Source of the DNA: Synechococcus sp. CB0101
GTDB lineage: Bacteria > Cyanobacteriota > Cyanobacteriia > PCC-6307 > Cyanobiaceae
DNA length: 64,000 bases
Assembly (NCBI RefSeq): GCF_000179235.2
Contig: NZ_CP039373.1
Coordinates: 186,032 to 250,031, forward strand
Direction: 5' to 3'
This document shows positions 13,812 to 48,683 of this stretch, piece by piece. Under the pieces are notes generated by a model. The model had not been told where the DNA came from and made no database searches. It saw only the letters and a program-made list of their open reading frames with translations. The first letter of the stretch is position 1, and each line of letters starts with the position of its first letter. The translations under genes and the position numbers were made by a program.

Positions 13812-13860
13812 GCCGGATGAAATAGGCTCAGTCAATCCTTGCTTTCTCAGCTCGTAGCCT

Positions 13861-13899
13861 GGTTATCAGTCGCTTAAGGAAGGTCAATCACTGGATTAA
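13861..13899 (-). promoter_or_regulatory. Candidate Pho box upstream of the anchor-I gene
   Basis: On the minus strand four degenerate heptamers, TTAATCC, ATTGACC, CTTAAGC and GATAACC, follow one another at 11, 10 and 11 bases and resemble CTTAACC. The 3' end of the array lies 50 bases before the ATG at 13811, a spacing similar to the clearer Pho boxes in this window. It is weaker than those at pstS, sphX and ptrA. Confidence 0.45.
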
Positions 13900-13912
13900 C
13901 ACAAACCTGGTT

Positions 13913-16206: not shown

Positions 16207-16244
16207 GGGACCGACGCCGTGCCAAGGGAGCAATGCGCGGACCA

Positions 16245-16283
16245 TAGATCAACTGATGTTGATCTACCAAGTCTTGTTGATCT
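16245..16283. promoter_or_regulatory. ArsR operator between gap-arsJ and arsR
   Basis: A perfect palindrome, TAGATCAAC-TGAT-GTTGATCTA (16245-16266), is followed by a third half-site GTTGATCT at 16276-16283. It sits 39 bases before the gap start and 86 bases before the arsR start, where an ArsR dimer could repress both directions and release on binding arsenite. Confidence 0.75.
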
Positions 16284-16309
16284 GGGTTGGGCGAGGCGGC
16301 GTTGTGATG

Positions 16310-16326
16310 GGTTAAGCCCCTTAACC
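16310..16326. promoter_or_regulatory. Inverted pair of Pho-type half-sites before arsR
   Basis: GGTTAAG (16310-16316) and CTTAACC (16320-16326) form a perfect inverted pair 26 bases before the arsR start. CTTAACC is exactly the heptamer of the Pho boxes in this window, but here the copies face each other rather than repeat directly every 11 bases, so PhoB binding is uncertain. Confidence 0.35.
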
Positions 16327-16351
16327 TTGCCCTGATCCAAGCCGTTGTGCC

Positions 16352-16684
16352 GTGCCGCTGCCCGCCTTGGTTGCAGTTGAGCCGCTGGAGCGGGAGCAGG
16401 CCCGTCAGCTCCTCAAGGCTCTGGCTGACCCCCTGCGCTTGGACGTGGTCCAGGCCTTGGCGGGCGGTGAGCGCTGCGTTTGTGATCTGGTGGCCGACCT
16501 CAACTTGGCGCAATCGCGGCTGTCGTTTCATCTCAAGGTGATGCGCGAAGCCGGATTGATTGAGGCGCGCGAGGAAGGCCGTTGGGTTTACTACCGCTTG
16601 CGTTCTGGAGCGCTTGAGCAGCTGCAGGCCTGGCTGGCAGCGTTGGCGACCGATTGCCAGGCCCCGGCGCGTTGTTGCTCTTAA
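16352..16684 (+). CDS. arsR: ArsR-family metalloregulator
   Basis: A 110-aa winged-helix repressor. The core is typical of ArsR/SmtB: '[17 protein letters not shown]', then the metal-site helix '[20 protein letters not shown]' with Cys42 and Cys44 (the CVCD motif of arsenite sensors), then '[20 protein letters not shown]' in the wing. The C-terminus adds further Cys ('[11 protein letters not shown]') that may complete the arsenite site. It is divergent from gap-arsJ with a palindromic operator between, so it should repress those genes and itself. The start is GTG 16352. The stop overlaps the convergent speD by 4 bases. Confidence 0.92.
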
Positions 16685-17261: not shown

Positions 17262-17314
17262 TCCCGGTCTGCTCGGCTGCTTAGACGTTGGGGGCTCCTG
17301 AACGGTTGCTCTCC

Positions 17315-18292
17315 ATGTCCTTCGCGAAGAAGGCTCTCTGCTTCGGCGTGCTCTCCAGCTTCGGCATCGCTGCAGCCGCCACTGCACAATCCGTGATCAA
17401 CGGTGCCGGTGCATCCTTCCCGGCTCCCTTCTACCAGCGCGCTTTCGCTGGTGCCGCATCCAAGGGCGTCAAGGTGAACTACCAGTCGGTGGGTTCTGGC
17501 GCTGGCGTGCGCCAGTACGTGGCTGGCACTGTGGATTTCGGCGCCACCGACGAGCCGATCAAGGCTTCTGAGGCTGCCAAGGTGAGCCGCGGTGTGGTGC
17601 AATTCCCCGCTGTGGGTGGCACCATCGCCATTGCTTACAACAAGCCTGATTGCAAGGGTCTGAAGCTCAGCCAAAAGCAGGCTGTCGACATCTTCCTGGG
17701 CAAGATCAAGACCTGGGATCAGCTGAAGTGCGGCAAGGGCCCCATCACCGTGGCGCACCGTTCTGACGGTTCCGGCACCACCTTCGCGTTCACCAACTCC
17801 CTGAGTGCCTTCTCCTCCGAGTGGAAGAGCAAGGTGGGTGAGGGCAAGAGCGTGAAGTGGCCTGTGGGCGTGGGCGGCAAAGGCAACGAGGGTGTGGCCG
17901 GCGTGCTCAACAACACCACCGGTGCCATCGGCTACGTGAACCAGAGCTATGTGAAGGGCAAGCTCCAGGCTGCTGCTCTGCAGAACAAGGCTGGCAAGTA
18001 TGTGCTTCCCACTGAAGCCAGCGGTGCTGCTGCTCTGAACAACATCAAGCTGAATGCTCAGCTGGCTGGCGAGGATCCCAATCCCGCTGGTGCTGGCAGC
18101 TACCCCATTTCCACCCTCACCTGGATTCTCGCTTACGAGAAAGGAAATGGTGCGAAGGCCGGCAAGATCCGTGAGGCCATGATGTATCTGCTGGGCCCTG
18201 CTCAGAATCAAGCCAGTGGGCTGGGCTATGTGCCCCTCAAGGGCGACATCCTGAAGCGCGCTAAAGCAGCTGTCGCCAAGATCGGCGCCTGA
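17315..18292 (+). CDS. pstS: Phosphate-binding protein of the Pst transporter
   Basis: A 325-aa periplasmic phosphate-binding protein. The signal peptide ('MSFAKKALCFGVLSSFGIAA') ends at an AxA site ('ATAQS'). Phosphate-contact segments follow in the usual order: 'NGAGASFPAPFYQ', 'GSGAGVRQYVAGTVDFGATD', 'HRSDGSGTTFAF' and 'NTTGAIGYVNQSYV'. It delivers phosphate to PstCA. ATG 17315 is chosen because it gives a clean signal peptide; the frame upstream to 17288 adds nothing. Codon use is markedly GCT/AAG-rich compared with its neighbours, in keeping with high expression. A Pho box precedes it and a strong terminator follows, so it is probably monocistronic. Confidence 0.95.
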   Translation: MSFAKKALCFGVLSSFGIAAAATAQSVINGAGASFPAPFYQRAFAGAASKGVKVNYQSVGSGAGVRQYVAGTVDFGATDEPIKASEAAKVSRGVVQFPAVGGTIAIAYNKPDCKGLKLSQKQAVDIFLGKIKTWDQLKCGKGPITVAHRSDGSGTTFAFTNSLSAFSSEWKSKVGEGKSVKWPVGVGGKGNEGVAGVLNNTTGAIGYVNQSYVKGKLQAAALQNKAGKYVLPTEASGAAALNNIKLNAQLAGEDPNPAGAGSYPISTLTWILAYEKGNGAKAGKIREAMMYLLGPAQNQASGLGYVPLKGDILKRAKAAVAKIGA

Positions 18293-19449: not shown

Positions 19450-20502
19450 TCAGCGATATTGCGGCCGCTTGTGCTCATCGAAGCTGCGTTCCAGCACCTG
19501 CCCCACGGTGAGGCCAATCGGAAGTTTGCCGGCAAAGGCGCTGCCGAGCACATTGCGGTAGAGCTTGTTGGTCACCAGCCGGTAGGTGGAATCCTGCAGT
19601 GGGATCACTCCGGCCTGCTGGGCAATTTTCACACCGCGCTGCAGGGTTCCGCTCACCATCGAGCGAATGGCAGTGTTGCTCTTCAGGGCCTGATCATTCA
19701 CGTAAAAGAACAGCGGCCGCGAGAGTGGCAAATAGCGGGAACTCTGAACCGATTCCACGCTGGGGAGCACCGTTCCCCGCGTTCCCTGCACCGCCAAGGC
19801 GCGCAGTTGGCTGCGGTTCGCTTGGTAATAGTCGTAGCCGAAATAGCCCAGGGCTCCTGGTTGGCTGGCCACGCAATTCACCAGCACGTTGTCATCCTCG
19901 CTGGCGGTGTAGTCCTGCCTGGAATCCGTGGTGCTGCCGTTGATCGCCTTGTTGAAGGTGTCGTAGGTGCCGGAATCGGTACCAGGGCCGCACAGTTTGA
20001 TCGGTGTGTTGGGCCACGCCGGATTCACCTGGTTCCAGCGCTGGATCTTGCCTTGGGCCTTGCGGTTCCAGAGCGTGCGCAGCTGGGCGGTACTGATCTC
20101 CTTGGCAAAGCTGTTTTTGGGGTTGACCACCACCGTGATCGCATCAAAAGCCACCGGCAGCTCGATGAAACGCACGCCAGCGGCTGCACAGCGCTTCAGT
20201 TCATCGCTGTTGATCGGCCGCGAAGCAGCGGCAATGCTGAGCTTGCCGCTGCAAAACTCACGAAAGCCAGCACTGGTGCCCACCGACCGGGCTTTGAACG
20301 TCACTCCTTTGGGGATTTGGCCTTTGGTGTTGGCGATGGCGGCCACGCTGAAGGGGTAGACCGTGCTTGATCCCGAAATCCAGATGGTCTTGTTGGGGCT
20401 GGCCCCCTGTTGAGCCAAGGCAGTACCGGTGACCGCCACCACGCTTACGGCGAACAGGGGGGCAACCAAGCGGGCAGCGATCACGGATGGAAAGGAACGC
20501 AT
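19450..20502 (-). CDS. sphX: SphX phosphate-binding protein
   Basis: A 350-aa periplasmic substrate-binding protein of the PstS-like SphX type. It has a signal peptide ('LVAPLFAVSVVAVTGTALA') then 'IWISGSSTVYPFSVAAI', 'SVGTSAGFREFCSGKLSIAA' and 'CGPGTDSGTYDTFNKAI' as phosphate-binding segments, followed by 'GALGYFGYDYYQAN'. SphX is a second high-affinity phosphate-binding protein in cyanobacteria, working with PstCAB. ATG 20502 is chosen over TTG 20523 because it starts a normal signal peptide. It is divergent from pstC; a Pho box for each direction lies in the 161-base gap between them. It differs clearly in sequence from PstS in the same window. Confidence 0.92.
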   Translation of the reverse strand: MRSFPSVIAARLVAPLFAVSVVAVTGTALAQQGASPNKTIWISGSSTVYPFSVAAIANTKGQIPKGVTFKARSVGTSAGFREFCSGKLSIAAASRPINSDELKRCAAAGVRFIELPVAFDAITVVVNPKNSFAKEISTAQLRTLWNRKAQGKIQRWNQVNPAWPNTPIKLCGPGTDSGTYDTFNKAINGSTTDSRQDYTASEDDNVLVNCVASQPGALGYFGYDYYQANRSQLRALAVQGTRGTVLPSVESVQSSRYLPLSRPLFFYVNDQALKSNTAIRSMVSGTLQRGVKIAQQAGVIPLQDSTYRLVTNKLYRNVLGSAFAGKLPIGLTVGQVLERSFDEHKRPQYR

Positions 20503-20534
20503 GGCGCCACTCTGACCAGCCAAAGGAGTCGCCT

Positions 20535-20561
20535 CGTTAAGTCCTGGTTAATGAATGGTTG
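20535..20561 (-). promoter_or_regulatory. Pho box upstream of sphX
   Basis: On the minus strand, [..]CAACC, ATTAACC and CTTAACG follow with an 11-base period (plus-strand starts 20535, 20546, 20557). The array ends 32 bases before the sphX ATG. Confidence 0.75.
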
Positions 20562-20614: not shown

Positions 20615-20663
20615 CCAGCTGTGCTGATGCGTGGGAGCTTGGGATGGTTAAGGCCTGTTGCCG

Positions 20664-21620
20664 ATGCCGCTTGCCGAACCTAGCGATCTCTTTTCCCTGC
20701 GGCGTCGGCCGCCCTCGGAGAAGCTGGTGGACCAAGGCTTTCGCCAGCTCTCAGTGCTGCTCGCCTCGATTGTGGGGTTGGTGCTGGTGGGCATCCTGCT
20801 CACGGTGCTGACAGGGGCCCATCAGGCCATCGGCGCCTTTGGCCTGCGGTTCATCACCACCTCCGATTGGGACCCGATCGGCAATAGCTACGGTGCTTTC
20901 ACGGCCATCTACGGCACGCTCATCACCTCGATCCTGGCGCTGGTGATTGCCGTACCCCTGGGTGTTGGCACGGCGATCTTCATCACTGAAAACCTGATTC
21001 CCCGTTGGCTTCGCCAGGCCCTTGGATTGATGGTGGAGCTCCTGGCCGCGATCCCATCGGTGGTGCTCGGTCTCTGGGCCATTTTTGTGATGGAGCCTTT
21101 CCTTCGCCCTCTGCTGGAAGCCCTGCACGTTTATCTCGGCTGGATTCCCTTCTTCTCCACCACGGCTCAGGGCCCCGGCGTGGCGCCGGCGATCTTGATT
21201 CTCGTGGTGATGATTCTGCCGATCATCACAGCCATTTCTCGGGATTCGCTTCAACAGGTGCCGCCTGAGCTTCGCCAGGCCGCCTACGGCGTGGGCACCA
21301 CGCGCTGGGGAGCCATCCTGCGGGTGATTCTGCCGGCGGCCGTTTCGGGCATTACCGGCGGAGTGATGTTGGCGCTGGGCCGAGCGATGGGTGAAACCAT
21401 GGCCGTCACCATGATCATCGGCAACTCCAACAATTTCAGTTGGAGCCTGCTAGCCCCGGGCAACACCATCTCCTCGATGCTGGCCAACCAATTCGGTGAA
21501 GCCGATGGCTTCCAGGTGTCGGCCCTGATGTATGCCGCTTTGGTGCTGATGATCCTCACCCTGGTTGTCAACATCCTGGCGCAGTGGATCGTGCGCCGTC
21601 TGAGCCTCAAGTACAGCTGA
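20664..21620 (+). CDS. pstC: Phosphate ABC transporter permease PstC
   Basis: A 318-aa inner-membrane permease with six predicted segments. The motifs are those of PstC: 'TSDWDPIGNSYGAFTAIYGT', 'EAAA-loop'-type 'LRQAAYGVGTTRWGAILRVI' followed by 'LPAAVSGITGGVMLALGRAM', and 'GETMAVTMIIGN'. It pairs with PstA to carry phosphate from PstS or SphX into the cell. ATG 20664 is used, with an AAGG about 10 bases upstream; TTG 20658 is less likely. pstA starts 5 bases after its stop. Confidence 0.95.
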   Translation: MPLAEPSDLFSLRRRPPSEKLVDQGFRQLSVLLASIVGLVLVGILLTVLTGAHQAIGAFGLRFITTSDWDPIGNSYGAFTAIYGTLITSILALVIAVPLGVGTAIFITENLIPRWLRQALGLMVELLAAIPSVVLGLWAIFVMEPFLRPLLEALHVYLGWIPFFSTTAQGPGVAPAILILVVMILPIITAISRDSLQQVPPELRQAAYGVGTTRWGAILRVILPAAVSGITGGVMLALGRAMGETMAVTMIIGNSNNFSWSLLAPGNTISSMLANQFGEADGFQVSALMYAALVLMILTLVVNILAQWIVRRLSLKYS

Positions 21621-21625
21621 CCACG

Positions 21626-22540
21626 ATGACTTCAACAGCTCCTTCGATGGCTCCCCTGCAGCCAGGCTTCGCTCGCTCATCACTGCGTTTCAACAGCTCC
21701 CTCTCGCGCAATCGCTGGAATCTGCTGTTCACGGTGGTGGCCGCAGCCTTCGCCTTGATCGCCGTGCTTCCGCTGCTGCTGGTGTTGGGCTATGTGCTCG
21801 TCAAAGGCGGATCTCTGCTGAGCTTTCGCTTGCTCACGGAGTTGCCTCCGCCCCCAGGCCTAGACGGTGGTGGCATCGGCAACGCCATCATTGGCACGAT
21901 TGTGGTGACCTTGATCGCCAGCTTGATCGCCATCCCAGTAGGCGTTGGCGGCGGCATCTACCTCGCCGAGTATTCGCGCTCCGGCTGGTTTGCCCAGTTT
22001 GTGCGGTTCGGCACGAACGTGCTTTCAGGTGTGCCCTCGATCATCTGCGGCGTGTTTGTTTACGGCCTGATCGTGAGCACCCGCCTCTTCTTTGATCAGA
22101 GCTACAGCGCGATGGCCGGCGGTGTGGCCCTGTCGGTGCTGATGCTGCCCACGGTGATCAAAACCACCGACGAAGCCCTCAAGCTCGTTCCTCAAGAGTT
22201 GCGCTGGGGAGCTGTTGGCATCGGCGCCTCCCGTTTCGTCACCATCACCCGCATCACCTTGCCAGCGGCGTTCACACCGATCGCCACTGGCGTGGTGTTG
22301 GGGATTGCCCGCGCGGCCGGCGAAACAGCTCCGTTGATCTTCACCGCCCTGTTCTCGCCCTTCTGGCAGGAGGGCTTGTTCAATCCGATCGCCACCATGT
22401 CGGTGTTGATCTTCAATTTCGCCATCATGCCTTACGACGCACAGATCGCCCTGGCCTGGGCTGCCTCGTTTGTGTTGGTCGTGATGATTCTCGCCGCCAA
22501 CCTGTTCGCGCGCTGGTTGGGTCGGTTCGCTCGCGCCTGA
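21626..22540 (+). CDS. pstA: Phosphate ABC transporter permease PstA
   Basis: A 304-aa inner-membrane permease. PstA marks are 'GGIGNAIIGTIVVTLIASLI', 'IPVGVGGGIYLAEYSR', 'VLSGVPSIICGVFVYGLIV' and the ABC-contact loop 'ELRWGAVGIGASRFVTITRI', then 'ARAAGETAPLIFTAL'. Six membrane segments are predicted. ATG 21626 is chosen because it lies just beyond the pstC stop; the frame's earlier start at 21584 is inside pstC. The pstB start follows 39 bases after the stop. Confidence 0.95.
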   Translation: MTSTAPSMAPLQPGFARSSLRFNSSLSRNRWNLLFTVVAAAFALIAVLPLLLVLGYVLVKGGSLLSFRLLTELPPPPGLDGGGIGNAIIGTIVVTLIASLIAIPVGVGGGIYLAEYSRSGWFAQFVRFGTNVLSGVPSIICGVFVYGLIVSTRLFFDQSYSAMAGGVALSVLMLPTVIKTTDEALKLVPQELRWGAVGIGASRFVTITRITLPAAFTPIATGVVLGIARAAGETAPLIFTALFSPFWQEGLFNPIATMSVLIFNFAIMPYDAQIALAWAASFVLVVMILAANLFARWLGRFARA

Positions 22541-22579
22541 TTGTCCCCTTTCCTCTCGCTCCGTCACCAAACCTGTGCC

Positions 22580-23404
22580 ATGACCACCTCCATGCCTTCT
22601 CCGTCTCACCTGCAGCAATCCGGTTCTGAGTTCTGCATGGAACTCGAGAACGTCGGCATCAGCTACGGCGGCAATGAAGCCGTTAAGGGTGTGTACATGC
22701 AAATCCCCCGCGGTCAGGTCACAGCTTTCATCGGCCCATCCGGTTGCGGCAAGAGCACGGTGCTGCGGGCCCTGAACCGAATGAATGACCTGATCGAGGG
22801 ATGCACGATCAAAGGTCGTGTGATTTTTGATGGTCAGGATCTCTATGCGCCGCAGGTTGACCCTGTGGAGGTGCGCCGCCGCATCGGCATGGTGTTCCAA
22901 AAACCCAATCCCTTCCCCAAAAGCATCTACGAAAACATCGCCTTCGGTGCCCGCATCAATGGCTACCGCGGTGATATGGACGAACTGGTGGAGCGCTCTC
23001 TGCGCAAGGCTGCCATCTGGGATGAGACCAAGGACAAACTCAAGGAAAGTGGCTATGCCCTCTCCGGTGGTCAGCAGCAGCGTCTGTGTATTGCCCGCGC
23101 CATTGCGATTGAGCCTGAGGTGATCCTGATGGATGAGCCTTGCTCGGCTCTTGACCCCATCTCAACCCTCAAGATCGAGGAGATGATGCATGAGCTCAAG
23201 AAGAGCTACACGATTGTGATCGTGACCCACAACATGCAACAGGCTGTGCGCGTGAGCGACATGACCGGCTTTTTCAACGTCACCCCCAAGGCTGATGGCG
23301 ACGGCAAGGTGGGCTGTCTTGAGGAGTTTGCGGCCACGGAAACGATCTTCAATGCTCCAACGCAGCAGGCCACCCAGGATTATGTCTCGGGCCGGTTTGG
23401 CTGA
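22580..23404 (+). CDS. pstB: Phosphate ABC transporter ATPase PstB
   Basis: A 274-aa ABC ATPase. Walker A is 'GPSGCGKST' (about 52-60), the Q-loop is in '[20 protein letters not shown]', the signature is '[16 protein letters not shown]', Walker B is '[13 protein letters not shown]' and the switch His is in 'VTHNMQQA'. The 'QKPNPFP' Q-loop is characteristic of PstB. ATG 22580 is used; the TTG at 22541 would add 13 unconserved residues. It completes the sphX / pstC-pstA-pstB transport block. No phoU gene follows. Confidence 0.96.
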
Positions 23405-25168: not shown

Positions 25169-26947
25169 TTGCTCAGCCGTAATTCATTCCCCTGGTGGGG
25201 TGTAGCCCTGTTGGCTGCACTGCTCAGTGCGCTGTTGTTTGTCTGGGATCTCGGTGGGATCGGCTTGGTGGATGAAACACCGCCGCTGTTTGCCGCCTCA
25301 GCCCGCGGAATGGCCGAGAGCGGGGATTGGTTGATCCCCCAGGTCAACGGATTACCCCGCTACGACAAGCCCCCCTTGGTCTATTGGCTGATGGCTGCGC
25401 TCTATAGCCTTCCGGGCCAGGCGCGTTGGGATGCGCTGGGGTCTTGGTCGGCGGGATTGCCGTCCGCATTGGCATCGGCTGGCACGTTGCTGCTGGTGTG
25501 CCTGATGACGGCATGGTGGGAGCGCCGTGTTCTCGCTCGCACTCAGGGCCTCTGGTTGGTGGCGGGCCTGTCGTTTGGCCTGAGCCCTTTGGTGCTGCTC
25601 TGGAGCCGCATCGGTGTGAGCGACAGCCTGCTGACGGCCCTGGTGGCGTTGGCGATGTTGAGTTCCTGGTGGTCGTGCCATAGCACTCGGGTGCCCTGGT
25701 GGCTGTGTTGGTTAGCCCTTGGGCTCGCCACGCTCACCAAGGGGCCTGTGGCCTTGGTGCTGTTTGGCCTGGCTTGGGCTGGTTGCGCGCTGTTGGACCG
25801 CAACCCCGCTCAACTTTGGCGGGGTTTGCAGCCGCTACGGGGCCTGTTGATCACCGTGGTGGTGGCTGCCCCTTGGTATGGCGCCGCCCTCTGGCGAGAG
25901 GGATCAGCCTTTGCTCAGAGCTTTTTTGGCTACCACAACCTGCAGCGTTTCACCGAGGTGGTGAATCGCCATGCGGCTCCGTGGTGGTTCTACGGCGCGA
26001 TGCTGCTGGTGGCCAGCCTTCCCTGGAGCCCGTTGGTTGTGCTCGGCCTATGGCGGGGCCTGCGCCGTGGGCCTGGGCTGCCTCGCTTTGCGGCCTGCTG
26101 GTTGTTGGCGGTGTTGCTGCTCTTCAGTGTCTCGGCGACCAAATTGCCGAGTTACTGGTTGCCAGCCACGCCCGCTGCGGCCTTGTTGGCCGCTTCGGTT
26201 TTGGCAGATCGCGATGCGGCTGTGCGCTGGTGTGTGCGCTTGGGTGCGCTGTGTTCCCTCAGCTTGGGCCTGGCTTTGCTGTTCACCCCGCAATGGCTCT
26301 CTGCGGTTGGCGATCCCGATCTGGTGGGTCTGGAGCAGGCGCTTTGGGCGTCTGGCGTGATCGCTCCGGCGCTGGTTTTGCTGGTGGCGGGAGGCTTGAT
26401 CGCCCTTTGGTTCACGATGCCGACGCGAGCAGATCGGTGGGCCACGCCTGTGTTGGCTGTGCAGTTGAGTTGGCTGTTGCTGGTGCCGGCTCTGTATTGG
26501 CCACTGCTGCGTCTGGGTGATGGCTTGCGCAGCCAACCGCTCCGCTCCCTCGCGCTACAAGCCCGTGATTTGCAGGCTGCGGAACAGCTGCACGGGCAAC
26601 CGATCGCGATGTTGGGAGTGATCCGGCCGAGCTTTCACTTCTATTCCCGGTCGCGGATCGCCTACGAAGGCTTCTCCGGCCAGGCGCTGGTGAATCTCGA
26701 TGACCGCCTGCGTCGGGAACCCAGATTGCAGGCGCCTCACCCCAGCGACCGCATTCTCGTGGCAGCCCCGCTCAGCCTTGCCCAGCACCGCAACTGGGCG
26801 GCTCTGCTCAGTCGCCGGCTTGCACAACAGGGGCGCTTTGGGCTGTGGTGGTTGGATCGTCGCCAACTGGAGCGGAAGGCACAGGTGTTGGCACAGCGCC
26901 AGGGCTTGATTCCCACTTGGCAAGTGCCTCAGCCGGAGCGCTTCTGA
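25169..26947 (+). CDS. ArnT/PMT-type membrane glycosyltransferase
   Basis: A 592-aa integral membrane protein with about 12 hydrophobic segments. The first periplasmic loop carries the acidic family motif 'GLVDETPPLFAASARGMAES' and 'NGLPRYDKPPLVYWLMAALY', as in ArnT and other GT39/GT83-type enzymes that move sugars from polyprenyl phosphate carriers to lipid A or proteins. The C-terminal soluble domain includes 'LGVIRPSFHFYSRSRIAYEG'. The substrate is unknown. The start is TTG 25169, the first start after an in-frame stop. It lies 224 bases beyond the insertion sequence. Its last 140 bases overlap the 3' end of ppk on the opposite strand, an unusually long convergent overlap. Confidence 0.85.
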   Translation: MLSRNSFPWWGVALLAALLSALLFVWDLGGIGLVDETPPLFAASARGMAESGDWLIPQVNGLPRYDKPPLVYWLMAALYSLPGQARWDALGSWSAGLPSALASAGTLLLVCLMTAWWERRVLARTQGLWLVAGLSFGLSPLVLLWSRIGVSDSLLTALVALAMLSSWWSCHSTRVPWWLCWLALGLATLTKGPVALVLFGLAWAGCALLDRNPAQLWRGLQPLRGLLITVVVAAPWYGAALWREGSAFAQSFFGYHNLQRFTEVVNRHAAPWWFYGAMLLVASLPWSPLVVLGLWRGLRRGPGLPRFAACWLLAVLLLFSVSATKLPSYWLPATPAAALLAASVLADRDAAVRWCVRLGALCSLSLGLALLFTPQWLSAVGDPDLVGLEQALWASGVIAPALVLLVAGGLIALWFTMPTRADRWATPVLAVQLSWLLLVPALYWPLLRLGDGLRSQPLRSLALQARDLQAAEQLHGQPIAMLGVIRPSFHFYSRSRIAYEGFSGQALVNLDDRLRREPRLQAPHPSDRILVAAPLSLAQHRNWAALLSRRLAQQGRFGLWWLDRRQLERKAQVLAQRQGLIPTWQVPQPERF

Positions 26948-29060
26948 GCGACCACAACTCCATCAGCTCCTGCTGCGCCACGGGGCCCTTGGCTTCGGCA
27001 TCACGCTCGATGTAGCTGCCGTCAGGTTGCATCAGCCAGCCATGGGCATCGTCGAGATAAAGCTGCAACAACCACTCCAGTTGCAGGCTGATGTTGGGAT
27101 CAAGCACCGGCACCACCGCTTCCACCCGGCGATCCAGATTGCGGGGCATCCAGTCGGCACTGCCGAGGAACAGCTCGGCTTCGCCGTTGTTGGCAAACCA
27201 GAAGAGGCGTGAATGCTCGAGCAGTCGTCCGATCACGCTGATCACGCGAATGTTCTCGCTCACTCCGGGCAGGCCGGGGCGCAGGCTGCACATGCCCCGC
27301 ACCACCAGATCTACGCTCACCCCAGCTTGAGAGGCTTCATAGAGCAAGGCGATGATGCCTGGATCCACCAATGCATTCATCTTGGCTTTGATGGCGGCCG
27401 GCCGACCGGCGCGCGCGTGCTCGATCTCCCGCTGAATCAATTCCTGCATGCGCCGCCGCAGGGTCACGGGGGCCACCAATAGGCGGCGGAACTCCTGCTG
27501 CTTGGAGAAACCGGTGAGGTAGTTGAACAGATCCACCAGGTCGCTCACCAGCTCGTTGTTGCAGCTGAGGACGCCGAGATCGGTGTAAAGACTGGATGTT
27601 TTGGAGTTGTAGTTGCCCGTTCCGATGTGGCAGTAGCCCTGCAGGTTCTCCTGCTCGCGTCGCACCACCAGGGTGATTTTGGTGTGGGTCTTCAGGCCTA
27701 ACACGCCGTACACCACATGCACACCGGAGCGCTCCAGTTGCCGGGCCCACTGGATGTTGTTGTCTTCGTCAAAGCGGGCCTTGAGTTCCACCAGGGTCAT
27801 CACCTGCTTGCCGTTCTCGGCAGCGCGAATGAGGGCGGCAATGATCGGTGAGTTTTTCGACACGCGATAGAGCGTCATCTTGATCGCCAGCACGTGGGGA
27901 TCATCAGCGGCTTGGTTGATGAACTCCTCCACGGAGGTGGAGAACAGATCAAACGGGTGATGCAGCAACACATCGCCGCGGCGGATCACGCGGAAGATGC
28001 TTTCAAAATCCTGGTATTGCAGCGAGCCATCCTCCAGCTGGCTGCTTTGGGTGGTGCGCAGCTGCTTGGGGGTTCGGCCCCGAAAAGGGGCGTCTTTGAG
28101 GTGGGGCGCGTTGATCGCCAGAAGGCCCATCAGATCATCCAAGCCGAGTGGGCCATTGATCCGGTACACGTCAAAGTCGTCCACCTCCATGCCGCGCATC
28201 AGCTGCTCCACCAGTTCAGCTGGCATCTCGTCGGCCACCTCCAGGCGCACCACTTCGCCCCCCATGCGCCGCTTGCGCAGGCCTTGCTCCAGAGCCTCCA
28301 TCAGATCGTCGGCTTCGAGCTCCCGCAGCTCCAGATCGGCGTCACGGGTGACCCGGAAGAAGTGATGGCCTTCGATCAGCATCCCCGGGAATAGGCGCTG
28401 CAGGTTGAAGGCCACCAGCTGCTCCAGTGGCAAGCCCATGAACAGAGGTTGGGGTGTTCGCCCACCATGCAATTCAGGCGGGATGCTCACAAAGCGCGGC
28501 AGGTTTTTCTGGGGAACTTTGATCCGCGCGAATTGTTGTTGTTGGGTGTTGGGGTCACGAATGGTGACCGCAATGTTCAAGCTGAGATTGCTGATGAATG
28601 GAAATGGGTGGGCTGGGTCAACCGCCAGTGGGGTGAGAACGGGGAAGACACTGGTGTGGAAGTAGCTGTTGGCCCAGTCTTTCTGCTTGCGGGAGAGATC
28701 GTCGTAATCGAGCAGAAGAATGCCTTGCTCGGCCAGGCTGCTTTTGAGGCTGTGGCGGTAGTGATCCTGCTGCCGAAGCAGCAGAGGCTCGAGCTGCTCG
28801 CGGATCGCATCCAGTTGTTGTCTTGGCGTGCGTCCATCTTCACTAAGGCTTTGCACGCCTGCATGCAGCTGCGACTGCAATGAGGCCACCCGCACCATGA
28901 AGAATTCATCAAGGTTGTTGCTGAAGATGGCGCTGAACTTGGCCTGCTCCAGCAGAGGTGTGCGTGGATTCAGGGCCTGCGCCAGCACACGCTCGTTGAA
29001 CTTGATCCAGCTCAGCTCACGGTTGAGATACAGCTCGTGGGCCAGCTGAGCGGAAGTCAT
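26808..29060 (-). CDS. ppk: Polyphosphate kinase
   Basis: A 750-aa PPK1, which polymerises the gamma phosphate of ATP into polyphosphate. The N domain begins 'YLNRELSWIKFNERVLAQAL', the head contains 'PVLTPLAVDPAHPFPFISNL', and the catalytic His is H459 in 'GLKTHTKITLVVRRE'. Later come 'GTGNYNSKTSSLYTDLG', 'IREIEHA'-type 'LIQREIEHARAGRPAAIKAK' and 'SADWMPRNLDRRVE'. The last 45 or so residues ('SSPGAVPTPVPSAPVGDD...') form a Pro/Ala-rich tail beyond the conserved end and lie antisense to the arnT-like gene. It starts at ATG 29060. No Pho box is seen upstream. Confidence 0.95.
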   Translation of the reverse strand: MTSAQLAHELYLNRELSWIKFNERVLAQALNPRTPLLEQAKFSAIFSNNLDEFFMVRVASLQSQLHAGVQSLSEDGRTPRQQLDAIREQLEPLLLRQQDHYRHSLKSSLAEQGILLLDYDDLSRKQKDWANSYFHTSVFPVLTPLAVDPAHPFPFISNLSLNIAVTIRDPNTQQQQFARIKVPQKNLPRFVSIPPELHGGRTPQPLFMGLPLEQLVAFNLQRLFPGMLIEGHHFFRVTRDADLELRELEADDLMEALEQGLRKRRMGGEVVRLEVADEMPAELVEQLMRGMEVDDFDVYRINGPLGLDDLMGLLAINAPHLKDAPFRGRTPKQLRTTQSSQLEDGSLQYQDFESIFRVIRRGDVLLHHPFDLFSTSVEEFINQAADDPHVLAIKMTLYRVSKNSPIIAALIRAAENGKQVMTLVELKARFDEDNNIQWARQLERSGVHVVYGVLGLKTHTKITLVVRREQENLQGYCHIGTGNYNSKTSSLYTDLGVLSCNNELVSDLVDLFNYLTGFSKQQEFRRLLVAPVTLRRRMQELIQREIEHARAGRPAAIKAKMNALVDPGIIALLYEASQAGVSVDLVVRGMCSLRPGLPGVSENIRVISVIGRLLEHSRLFWFANNGEAELFLGSADWMPRNLDRRVEAVVPVLDPNISLQLEWLLQLYLDDAHGWLMQPDGSYIERDAEAKGPVAQQELMELWSLRSAPAEALAKWESSPGAVPTPVPSAPVGDDPTTTAQSAPVVQAGD

Positions 29061-29110
29061 GGATCGCCTGAGGGATGAATCTTTTGTAGGGGGCGAAGGT
29101 TGCGGTCAGG

Positions 29111-29485
29111 TTATGGCTTGGTTGGCTGGAGCAACCGCCTCAGTCGAACGGCCACATCCCAGCAGCGGGTGGATTCCGGGTGGTCGATCTCTTCACTCAC
29201 CACGCTGATGTGGCAGAGGTTTGTGCGTGAATTCTTCCAGTGCATCGTCACCACAACAGCTTCAGCCTGGCAATGGCGCGGCAATCCCGCCTCCCGCAGC
29301 AGGAGGTAGCCATCGCGGCAATGTCGTTGCTGCAGTTCAAGGTCCAGGCTGCTGGCGATCAATGAGCGCAGGCGCAGGATGCTCGCCTGGTGCACCTTGG
29401 TCGTCCAAGCGAGTTCGGGCATGGCGAACGAGAGCCGGCCCCACTCACTCTCTCGCTGTCCTTGGCCGATGGGTGGTGTCGCCAT
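29111..29485 (-). CDS. Hypothetical protein
   Basis: A 124-aa basic protein with six His and three Cys and no membrane segment. The C-terminal half, 'HISVVSEEIDHPESTRCWDV' then 'AVRLRRLLQP', and the helix 'HQASILRLRSLIASSLDLEL' look ordered, but I recognise no family. The start may be ATG 29485 or the internal ATG at 29422 ('MPELAWTTKVHQ'). It lies 50 bases upstream of ppk on the same strand, so it may share its transcript. An overlapping plus-strand frame from 29221 belongs to the upstream, probably untranslated, part of the phosphatase frame. Confidence 0.55.
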   Translation of the reverse strand: MATPPIGQGQRESEWGRLSFAMPELAWTTKVHQASILRLRSLIASSLDLELQQRHCRDGYLLLREAGLPRHCQAEAVVVTMHWKNSRTNLCHISVVSEEIDHPESTRCWDVAVRLRRLLQPTKP

Positions 29486-42398: not shown

Positions 42399-42502
42399 CC
42401 TGGCTCAAACCCGTCGCCATCACCGTAGAAACCGCCTCAGCGGCTGTCCTTCACCGTCCCTTTATCAAAAGTCGGCAAGGTGGTGCAAGGTGCATCAGTT
42501 GC

Positions 42503-42874
42503 ATGAACTCTGGTCTGCTTCACACCATGCAGGCCCTGGCCAGCAGCTTGCCCCTGCGTGTTCTGGCGCCGGGCGAGCTGTTGTTTGAAGCGGGTGAACC
42601 GGGTGATTCGATCTTCTGTGTAATCAGCGGCTCGGTTGAGCTGCGTTGGGGCGCTGATGGGATGGAGCAGTTTGGTCCGGGCGAGGTGGTTGGGGTCGGT
42701 GCTTTGGTGAGCGACAACCATCGCCGGCACGGCACTGCTCGGGCATTGGAGGCCAGCGAGCTGATCGAAATGGGCCGTGAGCAGTTTTTGTTTGCGGTGC
42801 AGGAAACGCCCATGTTTGCCATCGAACTGATGGCCAGCCTCGAGCGCCGTTTGCACCGCTTAGAGGATGAATAG
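42503..42874 (+). CDS. Single-domain cyclic nucleotide-binding-type protein
   Basis: A 123-aa protein that is just a cNMP-binding (CAP_ED) beta-roll: 'LRVLAPGELLFEAGEPGDSI' then 'FCVISGSVELRW', 'FGPGEVVGVGALV', and a C-helix 'AIELMASLERRLHRLEDE'. The phosphate-binding cassette (normally with an Arg after E-a-A) is not clearly kept ('ALVSDNHRRHGTARA'), so nucleotide binding is uncertain. There is no DNA-binding domain. It is divergent from the RCK-type gene across 104 bases and convergent with corA (12 bases between stops). Confidence 0.8.
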   Translation: MNSGLLHTMQALASSLPLRVLAPGELLFEAGEPGDSIFCVISGSVELRWGADGMEQFGPGEVVGVGALVSDNHRRHGTARALEASELIEMGREQFLFAVQETPMFAIELMASLERRLHRLEDE

Positions 42875-42886
42875 GTCGGCCGTGGT

Positions 42887-44005
42887 TCAACGCCGCGGTG
42901 CGGTCCAATCCTCAAACCAGCCGCGCCGCCAGAGGTAGAGCGCCTGGATCGTGGCAATCGCACCCATGAGCACGAGTGAGGCGATGTAGCCGTAACGCCA
43001 GTGCAGCTCGGGCATGTTGTCGAAGTTCATGCCATAGATCCCGGCGATGAACGTGAGCGGGGCAAAGATCGTGGAAACGATCGTGAGCGTTTTCATGATC
43101 TGGTTCATGCGATTGCCGGTGCTCGCCATATGCGCCTCGGTCACCGCATCGCACTGATGGCGCAGGATTTCACAGCTGTCAAAAATCTGCTCCACGTTTT
43201 GGGCCATCTCCTGGAACCCCAGCAGGCCATCGGGCCCCATCACCGGTTGGTTCTGGCGTAAAAACAGCAGGATCTGATGGCGCAGCGGCCACAATTGCTG
43301 GCGGATGCGCCTCAGGTTCGTTCGCAGTTGGTAGGCGCGCGTTAACACCCGAGGCCGGGGATCGCGCAGGGCCGCCTCTTCCAGGTCATCCAGCCGGTTA
43401 GCCATCTGCTCGAGCATCGGGAAGATGCCATCGAGGATGTTGTCCACCATGTAGTGGAGCAGATCGTCGAGGTCTTCAGCGGCGGCCACTGGCGTTTTGT
43501 GCATCAGCCAATCGGTGAGCGAGGCAAATGGTTCACCGCTTGGTGCCTCTTCAATCGAAATCAGGCAGTTGTGGGTGAGCAGCATGCTCACTTGATCACT
43601 CACAAGGTTGAGGGGATCTCTGGAGAAGCGCAGCCGGTGCAGCACCACGGCGATCACATCGCCCATGGAATCCACTCGGGTGGATTGTGGGGTGTCGAGC
43701 ACCAGCGGGCTGAAGGCTGAGGGGATCCGGCATAGCTCGAGGGCCTCGCGGATCAGGTGCGGTTGCCCCATGCCAGTGATCCGCAGCCAGATCGGCACCC
43801 GTTGGCTGAGGAGATCCTGCAGTTGCTGTTGGCTGATCAGCCGGCAGAGCTGTGGACCCTCTGGCCACAGCACCAAGGCGGAGAAGCTCGTGGGTGCGCG
43901 CCCGCCGGCCAGGTACAGGCTGTTGGGCATCTGGCCCGGTCGCTCTTCCAGCCGCCGTGAGTCGAGCGAGCCCGGCGTTGGCCTCAGTTGGGGGAGGCTT
44001 TGCAT
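42887..44005 (-). CDS. corA: CorA-family magnesium/cobalt channel
   Basis: A 372-aa CorA-type protein. The large N-terminal cytoplasmic domain is followed by a long stalk helix ('EALRDPRPRVLTRAYQLRTN') and two C-terminal membrane segments with the universal 'YGMNFDNMPELHWRYGY' loop (GMN) between them. The last helix is 'SLVLMGAIATIQALYLWRRG'. It forms pentameric divalent-cation channels, importing Mg2+. ATG 44005 is used; 'MPNSLYLAGG' at residue 26 is an alternative start. Confidence 0.93.
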   Translation of the reverse strand: MQSLPQLRPTPGSLDSRRLEERPGQMPNSLYLAGGRAPTSFSALVLWPEGPQLCRLISQQQLQDLLSQRVPIWLRITGMGQPHLIREALELCRIPSAFSPLVLDTPQSTRVDSMGDVIAVVLHRLRFSRDPLNLVSDQVSMLLTHNCLISIEEAPSGEPFASLTDWLMHKTPVAAAEDLDDLLHYMVDNILDGIFPMLEQMANRLDDLEEAALRDPRPRVLTRAYQLRTNLRRIRQQLWPLRHQILLFLRQNQPVMGPDGLLGFQEMAQNVEQIFDSCEILRHQCDAVTEAHMASTGNRMNQIMKTLTIVSTIFAPLTFIAGIYGMNFDNMPELHWRYGYIASLVLMGAIATIQALYLWRRGWFEDWTAPRR

Positions 44006-44331: not shown

Positions 44332-44509
44332 ACGGCCCGGTCTGCAAGACGATCTCCAGAGCCTGGAGCGTTTTCGCGACTGGCTTCAGAGCCTTGTTGC
44401 GGCGCAGCAACCGCTTGAAGAATGGTCGATGAGTCGGGAGCAGTTGCGTGAGCGCTGGCTCCCTCGCTTGCAGGAGCGCGACCACTTCGCGAGCAGCCTC
44501 TACTTCTGA
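44324..44509 (+). CDS. Small acidic/helical hypothetical protein (61 aa)
   Basis: A 61-residue protein rich in Leu, Arg and Glu ('DDLQSLERFRDWLQSLVAAQ', 'QLRERWLPRLQERDHF'), most likely two amphipathic helices. It starts at GTG 44324 inside the end of the preceding small ORF and ends 10 bases into the convergent gene at 44500. No named family recognised. Confidence 0.5.
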   Translation: MSERPGLQDDLQSLERFRDWLQSLVAAQQPLEEWSMSREQLRERWLPRLQERDHFASSLYF

Positions 44510-44748
44510 GGTTTGGCGAGGCCTTCCGCCAGCGACTGGCTCAGTTGGCGGTGAAACTGCTGGTAATCACCGCTGCTGAGCAGCGTGCGTCGTGTGGCCT
44601 CATGCCGGCAGGCCGCTTGCAGTAAGCCAAACAGCATCAGTGCCTCCTGTTGGTTGAGGCAGAGGAGATGTTGTGTGGATGGCTGATCGGCGATGCGGCT
44701 GGCGTTGTCCGCTGCCAGTGGTTCTCGGATCAGTGTGGACAGCTTCAC
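44500..44748 (-). CDS. Small hypothetical protein (82 aa)
   Basis: An 82-residue soluble protein, probably helical, with 'LCLNQQEALMLFGLLQAACR' then 'HEATRRTLLSSGDYQQFHRQ'. The gene is divergent from the CHAD gene; the CHAD Pho box lies in the gap, 53 bases from this ATG (44748), so this gene might respond too. No function can be assigned. Confidence 0.55.
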   Translation of the reverse strand: MKLSTLIREPLAADNASRIADQPSTQHLLCLNQQEALMLFGLLQAACRHEATRRTLLSSGDYQQFHRQLSQSLAEGLAKPQK

Positions 44749-44800: not shown

Positions 44801-44826
44801 CATAACCTCCTCTTAACTCCTTAACC
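44801..44826 (+). promoter_or_regulatory. Pho box upstream of the CHAD gene
   Basis: CATAACC (44801-44807) and CTTAACT (44812-44818) are 11 bases apart. A third perfect CTTAACC (44820-44826) follows after only 8. The three together resemble the Pho boxes of pstS and ptrA. The end lies 41 bases before the proposed CHAD start. Confidence 0.65.
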
Positions 44827-44867
44827 TCTTGATTGTGTTCAGAGTGAGCCTTTCGCAGCTTTGCGCG

Positions 44868-45785
44868 GTGGGCGATCTCGATCACGCTGTGCTGTCCGGT
44901 GGAGAGAGTTGTGGCGCCTATGCGTCGTTTCTGCTCGAGCAACGGGCGCGCCGTTTGGTGGCCTTGCAGCTGGATGTGCTGGCTGACCGCGATCCTGAGC
45001 CGCTGCACCAACTGAGGGTGTGCTGCCGTCAGATCCGCAGCACGGTGGAGCAATTCCAGGCCGCCCTGGAGTTGCCCGAGCAGGTGAGCGCCCAGCGCCT
45101 AGCCCGGATCGGTTCCGATCTCGGCCTGGCCCGCGATCTCGATGTGATGCGCGATCAGCTGCAGCAGCGCTGGTTGCCTCTGCTGCCGGAGCGGGAGCAG
45201 GCCCCCCTGCGCAAAGTGCTCAAACAGCTGAAGCGCGAACGCAAGCTGGCCTTCGCGATCACCACCGACACCCTCAAAGGGCGCCGCTATCTGAAGCTCC
45301 TGGCCCGGCTGCAGGCCTGGTTGCGAGAGCCTTCGATCACCCCGATGGGTGCTGAGCCGATCGCGGATTGGATGCCTGAGCTGCAGCAGGTGGTGTTGGC
45401 TGGCCTGTTCACGCTTCCCGGCTGGTGGGTGGAGCGACCCCACGAGGAGGAGGGGGCCCAGGCCTTGCATCAGCTGCGGCGCCGCATCAAGCGTGCTCGC
45501 TATGGCCTGGTCAATCTCAGCGCGTTGGCCCCGGAGCTTGATGAGCCCTGGCTACATCAGCTCAAGCAGATGCAGACCACCCTCGGTGAGCTGCAAGACC
45601 TGCGCGTGCTGATGCACGCCCTCGAGCGCCTGCTTGAGGAGCGCCCGGATGCGGCGCTGCCCAGCCTCTGCAGCCTGATCCTCGAGGCCCGTGATCAGGC
45701 TTGGAGCAGCTGGCTGGCTGCCTCGGCTGAGCTGCGCACGGCACCGGGGCGGCACCGCCTGCTGAGCCTGGCGCTCAACCGCTAA
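44868..45785 (+). CDS. CHAD-domain (polyphosphate-binding) protein
   Basis: About 305 aa, a helical CHAD protein. The signature begins 'CGAYASFLLEQRARRLVALQ', 'DVLADRDPEPLHQLRVCCRQ' and 'IRSTVEQF', then 'RDLDVMRDQLQQRWLPLLPE' and a second half with 'HQLRRRIKRARYGLVNLSAL', the conserved His/Arg/Lys-rich helices that bind polyphosphate in characterised CHAD proteins. No CYTH domain is fused. The start is uncertain: the frame opens at TTG 44829, but that lies 3 bases after the Pho box, where the promoter should be; GTG 44868 is proposed. It sits between a Pho box and ptrA and is likely phosphate-controlled. Confidence 0.85.
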   Translation: MGDLDHAVLSGGESCGAYASFLLEQRARRLVALQLDVLADRDPEPLHQLRVCCRQIRSTVEQFQAALELPEQVSAQRLARIGSDLGLARDLDVMRDQLQQRWLPLLPEREQAPLRKVLKQLKRERKLAFAITTDTLKGRRYLKLLARLQAWLREPSITPMGAEPIADWMPELQQVVLAGLFTLPGWWVERPHEEEGAQALHQLRRRIKRARYGLVNLSALAPELDEPWLHQLKQMQTTLGELQDLRVLMHALERLLEERPDAALPSLCSLILEARDQAWSSWLAASAELRTAPGRHRLLSLALNR

Positions 45786-45809
45786 CCCAGCCTTAACCCA
45801 GCCTCTACC
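45781..45809 (+). promoter_or_regulatory. Pho box upstream of ptrA
   Basis: Three copies with an 11-base period: GCTAACC (45781), CTTAACC (45792) and CTCTACC (45803). The first overlaps the CHAD stop codon. The array ends 65 bases before the chosen ptrA start and supports control of ptrA by PhoB. Confidence 0.75.
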
Positions 45810-45874
45810 CGAGCTTTGCTCAAGGGCTGGTGATGCTCCATACAGTCCGCGGGTCCCGTCGGCACAACAGCTCG

Positions 45875-46499: not shown

Positions 46500-47639
46500 T
46501 CAGGCGGCGCGCGGCACGAGCAATTCGAGCAGCGCGCCGCCCTCGGGGTGGTTACTGGCCCGCACCATCCCTCCTTGGGAGAGGGCAATCTGTTGCACGA
46601 TTGCCAGGCCGAGCCCGCTGCCACTGCGCGGTGAACGCGCCCGGGAGGGATCGCCGCGGTAGAAGCGCTGGAACATCCGCTCCAGATCGGTGTCGCTCAG
46701 GCCAGGGCCGTGGTCGCGCACCGACACCATGCACCAGCGGTTGCGGGCGCTGATCTCCACTTCAATCGCCGCCTGATCGGGGCTGTAGCGCAGGGCGTTG
46801 TCGAGCAGGTTGAGCAGGGCCTGATGGAAGCGGGCCGGATCGATCGCCGCCTGGGCACTGTTGTCTGCTGCCGCGGGGCTCAGCTTCAGCGCCACGCCGC
46901 GTTCGCAGGCCATGGGCTCGAGGGTGCTCCACACCTGGCTCAACAGCGCTGCTGGATCCACCACCGCCTGCGGGTTGGATTCGGTGAAAGGGGTGTTGTC
47001 GAGGCGGGAGAGGTCGAGCAGATCGCTCACCAGCACCTGCAGCCGCTCCAGTTCCCGCTGCAAGCGTTGCACCAGCACCGCTTGGCGGCCGTCGGCCTTG
47101 ATGGCCAGGCTGTCGCCCACCAAGCGCAGGGCGGTGAGGGGGGTTTTCAATTCGTGGGCCACATCGCTCACCCACTGCTCCTGGCGCTCGAGCTGGCTCT
47201 CCAGTGGGTTGCGCCCCTGCAGCACCACGGCCACCCAGCCGGCGTCGCCCGGCATCACCCGCACATCCAGATTGCTGCTGCGCAACGGCCAGGAGCTGCG
47301 CTGGGCCACCCCTTTCTCCCGTGCCAGGTTCACCAGGTGCAGCAGCTCATCGGAGGGATCGAGCAGCGCAAACGGTTCACCCCGCAGCCCCAGGCCGGAA
47401 TCCTCGAGTTCGAGGAGCCATTCGGCGCGGGGATTGAGACCGCCGATGCGGTTATCGCCGTTGATCAGCAACCATCCCTGCGGCATCTCCTCCATCCACT
47501 CCCGGAGCTGAGCGTCGGGTGGATCGAGGGGGCTTCTGCGGCTGCGCCGCTTCAGGCGCGGCTTGCGTTTCAGCCAGAGGGCCAGGCCGGCGCCAGCGCC
47601 GCCGCCGATCAGGAAGGCCAGGGCATGGGTTGCGCTCAC
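46500..47639 (-). CDS. phoR: Phosphate sensor histidine kinase PhoR
   Basis: A 379-aa kinase. One N-terminal membrane helix ('ALAFLIGGGAGAGLALWL') is followed by a PAS-like domain ('MPQGWLLINGDNRIGGLNPR'), the HisKA box with His162 in 'VSDVAHELKTPLTALRLV', and the HATPase: N box 'LLNLLDNALRYSP', G1 'VRDHGPGLSD', F box 'MFQRFYRG', G2 'GSGLGLAIVQQI'. With no periplasmic domain, phosphate status is probably sensed through the Pst system, as in other bacteria. The start is GTG 47639, 3 bases after the phoB stop, so phoB-phoR form an operon. Confidence 0.93.
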   Translation of the reverse strand: MSATHALAFLIGGGAGAGLALWLKRKPRLKRRSRRSPLDPPDAQLREWMEEMPQGWLLINGDNRIGGLNPRAEWLLELEDSGLGLRGEPFALLDPSDELLHLVNLAREKGVAQRSSWPLRSSNLDVRVMPGDAGWVAVVLQGRNPLESQLERQEQWVSDVAHELKTPLTALRLVGDSLAIKADGRQAVLVQRLQRELERLQVLVSDLLDLSRLDNTPFTESNPQAVVDPAALLSQVWSTLEPMACERGVALKLSPAAADNSAQAAIDPARFHQALLNLLDNALRYSPDQAAIEVEISARNRWCMVSVRDHGPGLSDTDLERMFQRFYRGDPSRARSPRSGSGLGLAIVQQIALSQGGMVRASNHPEGGALLELLVPRAA

Positions 47640-47642
47640 CGG

Positions 47643-48347
47643 TCAGCCGAAGCGGTAGCCAAAGCCGCGCACGGTCACCAGCTTGGCGGGGGTGGAGGGA
47701 TCGTCCTCAATCTTTTCGCGCAACCAGCGGATGTGCACGTCCACGGTTTTGCTGTCGCCGATGTAGTCCACCCCCCACACCTGCTCGATCAGTTGCTCGC
47801 GGCTCCACACCCGCCGTGGGTTCTGCATGAACAGCTCCAGCAGCTTGTATTCCTTGGGTGAGAGGCGAATCTCGATTCCGGCGCGGGTGACCCGGCATTC
47901 ACCGGGATAGAGCTGCAGATCCAGGTGCTCGAGGCTGCTGGTGGTGGGCAGCGGTGTGCGCTGGCGCCGCAGCAGGGCGCGGCAACGGGCCACCAGTTCT
48001 CGCATCCCGAAGGGTTTGATCAGGTAGTCGTCGGCCCCCACTTCAAGGCCGAGCACCCGATCGGTTTCGGTGTCGCGGGCACTCACCACCAGGATCAGTG
48101 GAGGCGTGCTGCCTTGGCGGAGCTGGCGGCAGAGATCAAGGCCGTTGATGCCCGGCAGCATCAGGTCGAGCACCACAAGGTCGTAGCTGTCACGGCTGAG
48201 CAGGTCCCAGGCGCTGCGGCCATTGGTGGCGGCCGTGACAGCGAAGCCTTCCATTTCCAGGGCCTCAGCCACGGTTTCCCGGATGGTGTCGTCGTCCTCC
48301 ACCACCAGCAGCCGCGCCATGGGGGTGGCGTCGTCAACCTGATTCAT
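47643..48347 (-). CDS. phoB: Phosphate response regulator PhoB
   Basis: A 234-aa OmpR-family regulator. The receiver has the acidic pair in 'LLVVEDDDTIRETV', phosphoacceptor D61 in 'LVVLDLMLPGINGLDLCRQL' and Lys111 in 'DDYLIKPFGMRELVARCRAL'. The winged helix follows ('LSPKEYKLLELFMQNPRRVW', 'SREQLIEQVWGVDYIGDSKT', 'VTVRGFGYRFG'). It activates the Pho regulon through the 11-bp repeats seen here. ATG 48347 is chosen; the open frame reaches 48668 but overlaps other DNA with no conserved sequence. ATG 48320 ('MARLLVVEDD') is a possible shorter start. No Pho box is evident in front of phoB itself. Confidence 0.95.
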   Translation of the reverse strand: MNQVDDATPMARLLVVEDDDTIRETVAEALEMEGFAVTAATNGRSAWDLLSRDSYDLVVLDLMLPGINGLDLCRQLRQGSTPPLILVVSARDTETDRVLGLEVGADDYLIKPFGMRELVARCRALLRRQRTPLPTTSSLEHLDLQLYPGECRVTRAGIEIRLSPKEYKLLELFMQNPRRVWSREQLIEQVWGVDYIGDSKTVDVHIRWLREKIEDDPSTPAKLVTVRGFGYRFG

Positions 48348-48414
48348 GCGCCAATTCTGGGCGTGACCCCCTGTGTTGCTCGATACCAAGCCAAGGGAAG
48401 ATCCCTCGCGTGCC

Positions 48415-48603: not shown

Positions 48604-48683
48604 GCCGCTCGTTCTGTGCTGGAACGCACACTAAGTCGGCTAGGGGCTGGTGGGGTTCTGTTAAGCACCAGCCCCGCACGGGT

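Follow-up and report, generated by a model that had tools for sequence, protein, structure and literature searches.

A Pho-boxed CHAD gene and a second polyphosphate kinase in the phosphate gene neighbourhood of Synechococcus sp. CB0101

CHAD proteins bind polyphosphate and, in work cited by the same source, were found on its granules (PMC6537752). The closest described system is PptA of Streptomyces, a CHAD protein which is controlled by PhoR/PhoP together with ppk, and the loss of which leads to phosphate stress (PMC8003754). For cyanobacteria, one report states that most polyphosphate genes of Nodularia show no clear response to P limitation, with ppk rising after 14 days, that P-deplete filaments retain polyphosphate, and that those of Synechocystis are said not to belong to the P regulon (PMC9846622). 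The regulator gene ptrA is controlled by PhoBR (PMC11098088), and in Synechococcus WH8102 it is partly co-transcribed with pstS1a (PMC10846223). A 2007 definition of the Pho box requires two 8-bp repeats separated by a 3-bp linker (PMC1906773), and in PhoB assays on Synechocystis all three TTAA cores mattered (PMC11126600).

Our study reports on a CHAD gene of Synechococcus sp. CB0101, a picocyanobacterium probably of estuarine origin; the gene lies in a 64,000-nucleotide stretch of the genome, and the whole of the stretch analysed is referred to as the window. Like PptA, its product is a stand-alone CHAD protein tied to ppk and to control of the PhoP/PhoB type (PMC8003754). The arrangement is different: PptA belongs to a single ppk-pptA-nudix operon, whereas CHAD and a second ppk in the window have separate boxes, CHAD does not lie co-directionally behind ppk, and its partners are ptrA, pst and corA. 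A P gene stands directly upstream of ptrA in the pstS1a-ptrA unit of WH8102 (PMC10846223), and in the window CHAD fills this slot. The predicted cyanobacterial Pho regulons of Su et al. (2007, PMC1906773) use the same box definition as here; the word CHAD occurs 0 times in the text of that paper, and its Table 1 has no Vulcanococcus-like strain. We found no earlier print notice of a Pho-boxed CHAD gene in the searched literature, which comprised open papers. A paper on a CB0101 toxin-antitoxin system reports P-starvation RNA-seq (PMC5498466); the available portions of the open literature on phosphate starvation, PhoB and CB0101 yielded no expression record for this CHAD gene, and those of the P-starvation and PhoB papers leave CHAD unmentioned.

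The CHAD gene, its product and its neighbours

The CHAD gene and its surroundings comprise the following features.

42887..44005 (-): corA-type Mg transporter, a recurrent CHAD neighbour; TIGR00383 above cut-off; near CHAD in 44/79 loci
44500-44748 (-): ORF82, 82 aa, divergent from CHAD across the Pho box
44801..44819 (+): CHAD Pho box, CATAACCT-CCT-CTTAACTC; two half-sites at 11-bp spacing; highest pair score of the window
44820..44827 (+): third copy of the repeat, CTTAACCT; 8 bp on from the second and outside the 11-bp phase
44840..44845 (+): -10-like CAGAGT; the first half-site starts 39 nt before it
44868..45785 (+): CHAD protein, stand-alone, phosin type; 305 aa from the conserved GTG; PF05235 E 6.1e-39; fold match 6qva
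45781..45821 (+): ptrA Pho box GCTAACC, CTTAACC, CTCTACC, CTTTGCT; 11-bp spacing; overlaps the CHAD stop codon
45875..46495 (+): ptrA (Crp/Fnr family); the ORF opens at 45830; NF053664 above cut-off
46500..47639 (-): phoR-like histidine kinase; best NCBIfam matches PnpS and PhoR, both below cut-offs
47643..48350 (-): phoB-like response regulator; the ORF opens at 48668; best match TIGR02154, below cut-off

The protein encoded at 44868-45785 is the one CHAD match of the whole single-contig genome of 2,789,616 bases, with a PF05235 score of 134.8 bits against a gathering cut-off of 25.6, and its nearest named relatives come from Vulcanococcus metagenome genomes. Solved CHAD domains match the protein with a best E-value of 2.6e-12. 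A Foldseek search with a predicted model, which was built from six sequences and has a pLDDT of only 71, returned the CHAD-polyphosphate complex of Chlorobium tepidum CtCHAD (6qva) as the best hit (E 2.2e-07, TM 0.71), and the S. chartreusis PptA structure (6rn5) as the sixth of six significant matches. While identity to CtCHAD in the fold alignment is 22-23%, the two proteins have the fold and six checked contact positions in common: H47, R50, R54, R89, R211 and Y212 of the window protein correspond to His253, Arg256, Arg260, Arg296, Arg418 and Tyr419 of CtCHAD, as matched by counting along the alignment, where a single numbering offset (204) fits all six. These positions are kept in 69-70 of 72 orthologues, and mutation of the CtCHAD residues weakens polyphosphate binding (PMC6537752). 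From the fold and the conserved residues we infer that the window protein binds polyphosphate.

The start of the gene was taken as GTG 44868, which is conserved across congeners and by their comparison lies about 40 nt downstream of the repeats; an upstream TTG at 44829 was dropped in its favour. ORF82, across the box, is present in four other congeners and gave no match in Pfam or NCBIfam. The earlier note had ptrA as the next gene after CHAD with a Pho box of its own, and this is confirmed by a score of 345.6 bits against NF053664 (cut-off 300) and by repeats at 45781, 45792 and 45803 (pair scores 13.3 and 11.4); among correctly oriented ptrA genes in the comparison, four-repeat fronts of like form precede others as well. 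Translation of ptrA probably begins at ATG 45875, since a -10-like TACAGT (45841) falls inside the longer ORF. The phoR- and phoB-like genes do adjoin ptrA as was claimed; they are on the opposite strand and converge on it, and are thus not downstream in one operon.

Three further spots in the window bear Pho-like pairs. One (42449-42467, +; score 14.9) is found 36 nt before a 123-aa ORF with a cyclic-nucleotide-binding domain (42503-42874) that adjoins corA. The others are in the region 12189-16684, upstream of a choice-of-anchor I protein (13860, -) and at an ArsR-type regulator (16320, +); this region also holds an MFS transporter and a GAPDH gene, and may be a set for arsenate export within the phosphate island.

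The CHAD Pho box and its conservation

Three repeats stand directly before the CHAD gene, as first noticed: CATAACC at 44801, CTTAACT at 44812 and CTTAACC at 44820. Their reading as a Pho box is upheld for the first two, which form a pair of 8-bp repeats with a 3-bp linker at the 11-bp PhoB spacing; the third follows the second by 8 bp and not 11 bp, so that the three are not in phase, and is found at 5/10 congeneric CHAD loci of the family sample. A half-site matrix based on 27 Pho boxes published for other cyanobacteria (PMC1906773) gave the 44801 pair a score of 19.7, the highest of any pair in the window. The next three ranks are taken by the fronts of the pst genes (19.0 for one pstS, 18.5 for pstCAB and 17.7 for the second pstS), which serve as positive controls; ptrA (13.3) and ppk (11.4) score lower.

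17288-18292 (+): pstS, positive control; box 17244; pstS domain
19450-20523 (-): pstS, positive control; box 20534-20552; pstS domain
20658-23404 (+): pstCAB, positive control; box 20597; pstC, pstA and pstB named from ORF reading only

A 400-kb control from the same genome contained six sites scoring at least 15, one of them above the CHAD pair (22.0), and all six are confined to a single 20-kb stretch. That stretch (L183, G000:C1:980001-1000000) is AT-rich in a GC-rich genome and looks like a foreign island. A strict Pho pattern with at most one mismatch occurs four times in 2.79 Mb, at CHAD, at two sites in the pstS/pstC intergenic region and at one unknown site, against two matches for the reversed pattern; a pattern of CTTAACC, a gap of 3-5 bp and CTTAAC gave no match. 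The fourth site (L173, G000:C1:2735070-2735086, -) is an exact match just upstream of a 203-aa membrane-protein-like ORF and close to a purE-like ORF, identifications that come from reading the translations; the former is a possible new Pho gene.

The spacing of the box is specific: of the 15 loci from genera g1 and g18, 13 score at least 15 at 11 bp, and between 1 and 5 do so at spacings of 8-10 or 12-15 bp. Nineteen loci of g1, g18 and g30 reach a score of 7, and 16 of these have NANAGT at +38/+39, a motif that was picked after looking at the loci and has a background of 0.0008 per base; this -10-like element is absent from its place in G092, G115 and G189. The sequence between box and element varies from genus to genus.

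Conservation was assessed in 201 genomes of the family; 76 of them contain CHAD, in 75 cases above cut-off, and 100 have a PtrA match above cut-off. Besides the window we used 78 CHAD loci, 79 in total; two with an internal stop (G192:C10 and G182:C17) and one below the cut-off (G129:C27) were omitted from all counts. In a CHAD tree of 77 of these loci, 72 form one group (support 92/53) and five a second class, of which 0/5 have P neighbours; the group and two short loci outside the tree (G155:C4 and G168:C8) make up 74 first-class loci. An own box, reaching at least the 95th percentile of 416 control upstreams that had been cleaned of pstS and ppk genes beside CHAD, is found in 21 of the 74, where about two are expected by chance; 13 reach at least the 99th percentile, and one of the 21 (G183) is doubtful, with its match far upstream. 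In 29 loci CHAD lies directly behind a boxed pstS. Two further loci lie behind a pstS in which no box was detected and 22 have neither, giving 24 of 74 without either signal. Within the genus, own boxes occur in 8/10 loci of the family sample and in 6/9 further loci from a separate later draw (16.0-21.1; G201, G204, G205, G207, G208 and G210), with no box in G203, G209 and G212. Conservation of the repeats at orthologues had been named beforehand as a test of the idea, and it holds in 50/74 first-class loci, by own box or boxed pstS, and in those six congeners.

The gene neighbourhood tells of the same association. Within the fetched stretches, of about 6 kb on each side (less at contig ends and more in a few), a P gene (pstS, ppk, ptrA or phoB) is near CHAD in 56/79 loci, corA in 44/79, and none of these in 17/79. 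Seven of ten g6 loci have the order corA-pstS-CHAD-ptrA-phoB-phoR, all on one strand; corA-pstS-CHAD is found in most loci of g34, g45 and g47, CHAD-pstS-ptrA in four of five from g18, and corA-CHAD-pstS-ptrA in both from g51. In three congeners without CHAD beside ptrA (G009, G134 and G177), the slot is occupied by pstS.

The second polyphosphate kinase and the proposed role of CHAD

The ppk placed by the earlier note at 26.8-29 kb is present, and its link to CHAD proved firmer than had been claimed, as this gene is a second copy with a box of its own.

26808..29060 (-): second ppk of the genome; four PP_kinase Pfam domains
29097..29126 (-): Pho-box-like repeats of the second ppk, GCCAACC, CATAACC, CGCAACC; 11-bp spacing; pair scores 11.4 and 10.0

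The core ppk (G000:C1:1489925) is 74% identical to it. Among the 21 ppk fronts scored, of 35 matches, none of the 14 core copies exceeds 2.0, and all seven second copies score 10.0-15.4; the window's own box is weak, its 11.4 lying above the 95th control percentile and below the 99th. In G092 and G115 the second ppk is divergent to CHAD, with a pair score of 21.1, and that of G115 is about 60% identical to the others. A ppk is also close and divergent to CHAD in G201, G203, G205, G209 and G210; with seven such congeners, the distance of about 16 kb that separates the two genes in the window is not the rule. Of the 18 congeneric genomes in which CHAD and ptrA are no more than 3 kb apart, 16 have two ppk matches, against none of the five others (G009, G134, G177, G202 at 62% completeness and G211 at 86%). 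This tally covers 23 genomes from two draws, with G206 counted by a CHAD fragment, and its cases are not independent, since congeners are related. The two exceptions (G206 and G208), with CHAD beside ptrA but one ppk found, are both 84-85% complete. Two matches occur in 2 of the 190 remaining genomes of the family sample (G011 and G098), and G011 looks like an assembly duplicate.

Because CHAD proteins bind polyphosphate and Streptomyces PptA is under PhoR/PhoP control with ppk, we consider it likely that the window's CHAD protein is a Pho-regulated phosin which works with a Pho-regulated second kinase, regulation and granule role taken jointly. The CHAD promoter resembles a PhoB promoter: about 20 nt separate the end of the second half-site of its tandem Pho box from the -10-like hexamer. 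When phosphate is scarce, PhoR and PhoB would bind and switch on CHAD, pst, ptrA and the second, dedicated polyphosphate kinase together. The stand-alone phosin-type protein may coat or grip polyphosphate, and CHAD on the granules and the inducible kinase could then manage the store through starvation and when phosphate comes back, such that scavenged phosphate would be banked and released in a controlled way. Management of the granule store is thus the role that appears most likely for CHAD, and the Pho-wired CHAD genes of many relatives suggest that the phosphate store is run as part of the starvation response. Several observations weigh against this reading: the third repeat is out of phase, although each of the three TTAA cores counted in Synechocystis (PMC11126600); 24/74 first-class loci have neither signal, and three of the nine further congeneric loci have no box; three loci lack the -10-like element; the box of the window's ppk is weak; G206 and G208 have a single ppk match; and polyphosphate genes mostly give no clear P response in Nodularia and are placed outside the P regulon in Synechocystis (PMC9846622).

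Of the other readings, the one with most in its favour retains the same regulation and reverses its use: CHAD would present polyphosphate to exopolyphosphatases, and PhoB would induce release and not storage. We regard this mobilisation as a possibility to be taken seriously, if not the favoured one; against it, the partner gene with a box in the window encodes a kinase, though PPK can run backwards. Such a role has been proposed for PptA of Streptomyces lividans, the mutant of which suffers phosphate stress (PMC8003754), and the polyphosphatase ygiF gains activity from a CHAD domain (PMC6537752). The frequency of corA beside CHAD (44/79 loci) and a tie between CHAD proteins and copper resistance in acidophiles (PMC10892726) would fit a function in metal-phosphate balance, in which phosphate control comes second to the handling of Mg-polyphosphate, or of other metals, by CHAD and CorA. 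This seems unlikely, given that the Pho boxes and the pstS, ptrA and ppk links concern phosphate and that g18, without corA in the fetched stretches, retains the box in 5/5.

It is quite improbable that the box serves ORF82 or ptrA only, leaving CHAD as a bystander. ORF82 is divergent from CHAD across the box and ptrA adjoins, and pstS1a and ptrA are reported to be partly co-transcribed in WH8102 (PMC10846223), but ptrA has its own repeats. The orientation of the box and the -10-like element point to CHAD, and the box is kept with CHAD in g18 and g30, where tblastn found no ORF82; on these grounds ORF82 was rejected as its owner. The least credible reading, to which we give very little weight, is a fortuitous match of the repeats within intergenic DNA that is rich in AT: a higher control site and two matches of the reversed pattern would allow it, yet the six high control sites are all confined to a single AT-rich stretch, and the conservation, spacing and position of the CHAD box speak against it.

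Returning to the Pho-regulated phosin and kinase, we propose more tentatively that a starvation-inducible polyphosphate module has evolved, in which a Pho-boxed second kinase and a Pho-boxed phosin are set apart from the unboxed housekeeping kinase; in the boldest form of this proposal, a CHAD-polyphosphate complex would report the state of the store to the PhoR/PtrA circuit. With such a module, polyphosphate would be built or remodelled exactly when phosphate is scarce. A Pho-boxed, putatively polyphosphate-binding protein with a second boxed kinase would be the opposite of the case described for Nodularia and Synechocystis (PMC9846622). CHAD and kinase genes linked to ptrA and pst would tie phosphate storage to the switch that governs uptake, and provide a testable case in a culturable group.

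CHAD outside the family

CHAD is present in 163 of 195 genomes of the window's class, and the 20 listed of the 32 genomes without it are all from the window's family. In the fetched stretches around 40 CHAD loci from 32 other families, no pst, ppk or ptrA gene lies close to CHAD; what few matches there are near these loci are response-regulator, kinase, ABC or CorA-like, at 25-40% identity. Operon linkage of CHAD is special to the window's family. Pho-box-like repeats at or above the 99th control percentile, in either orientation, lie upstream of 11 of these first 40 loci, where about 0.8 are expected, and of 24/60 when 20 more loci, chosen partly after seeing boxes, are included. As the repeats are over-represented outside the family too, a Pho link of CHAD may be older than the family. 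The outside loci with repeats include L233, L243, L264, L265 and L301-L309, from families f16 and f4. In f4 (7/7) the repeats at CHAD are in reverse orientation, mostly with a co-directional upstream gene, while in f16 (6/6) a TATACT- or TATAAT-like element precedes them and the start codon follows, a position that would suit repression.
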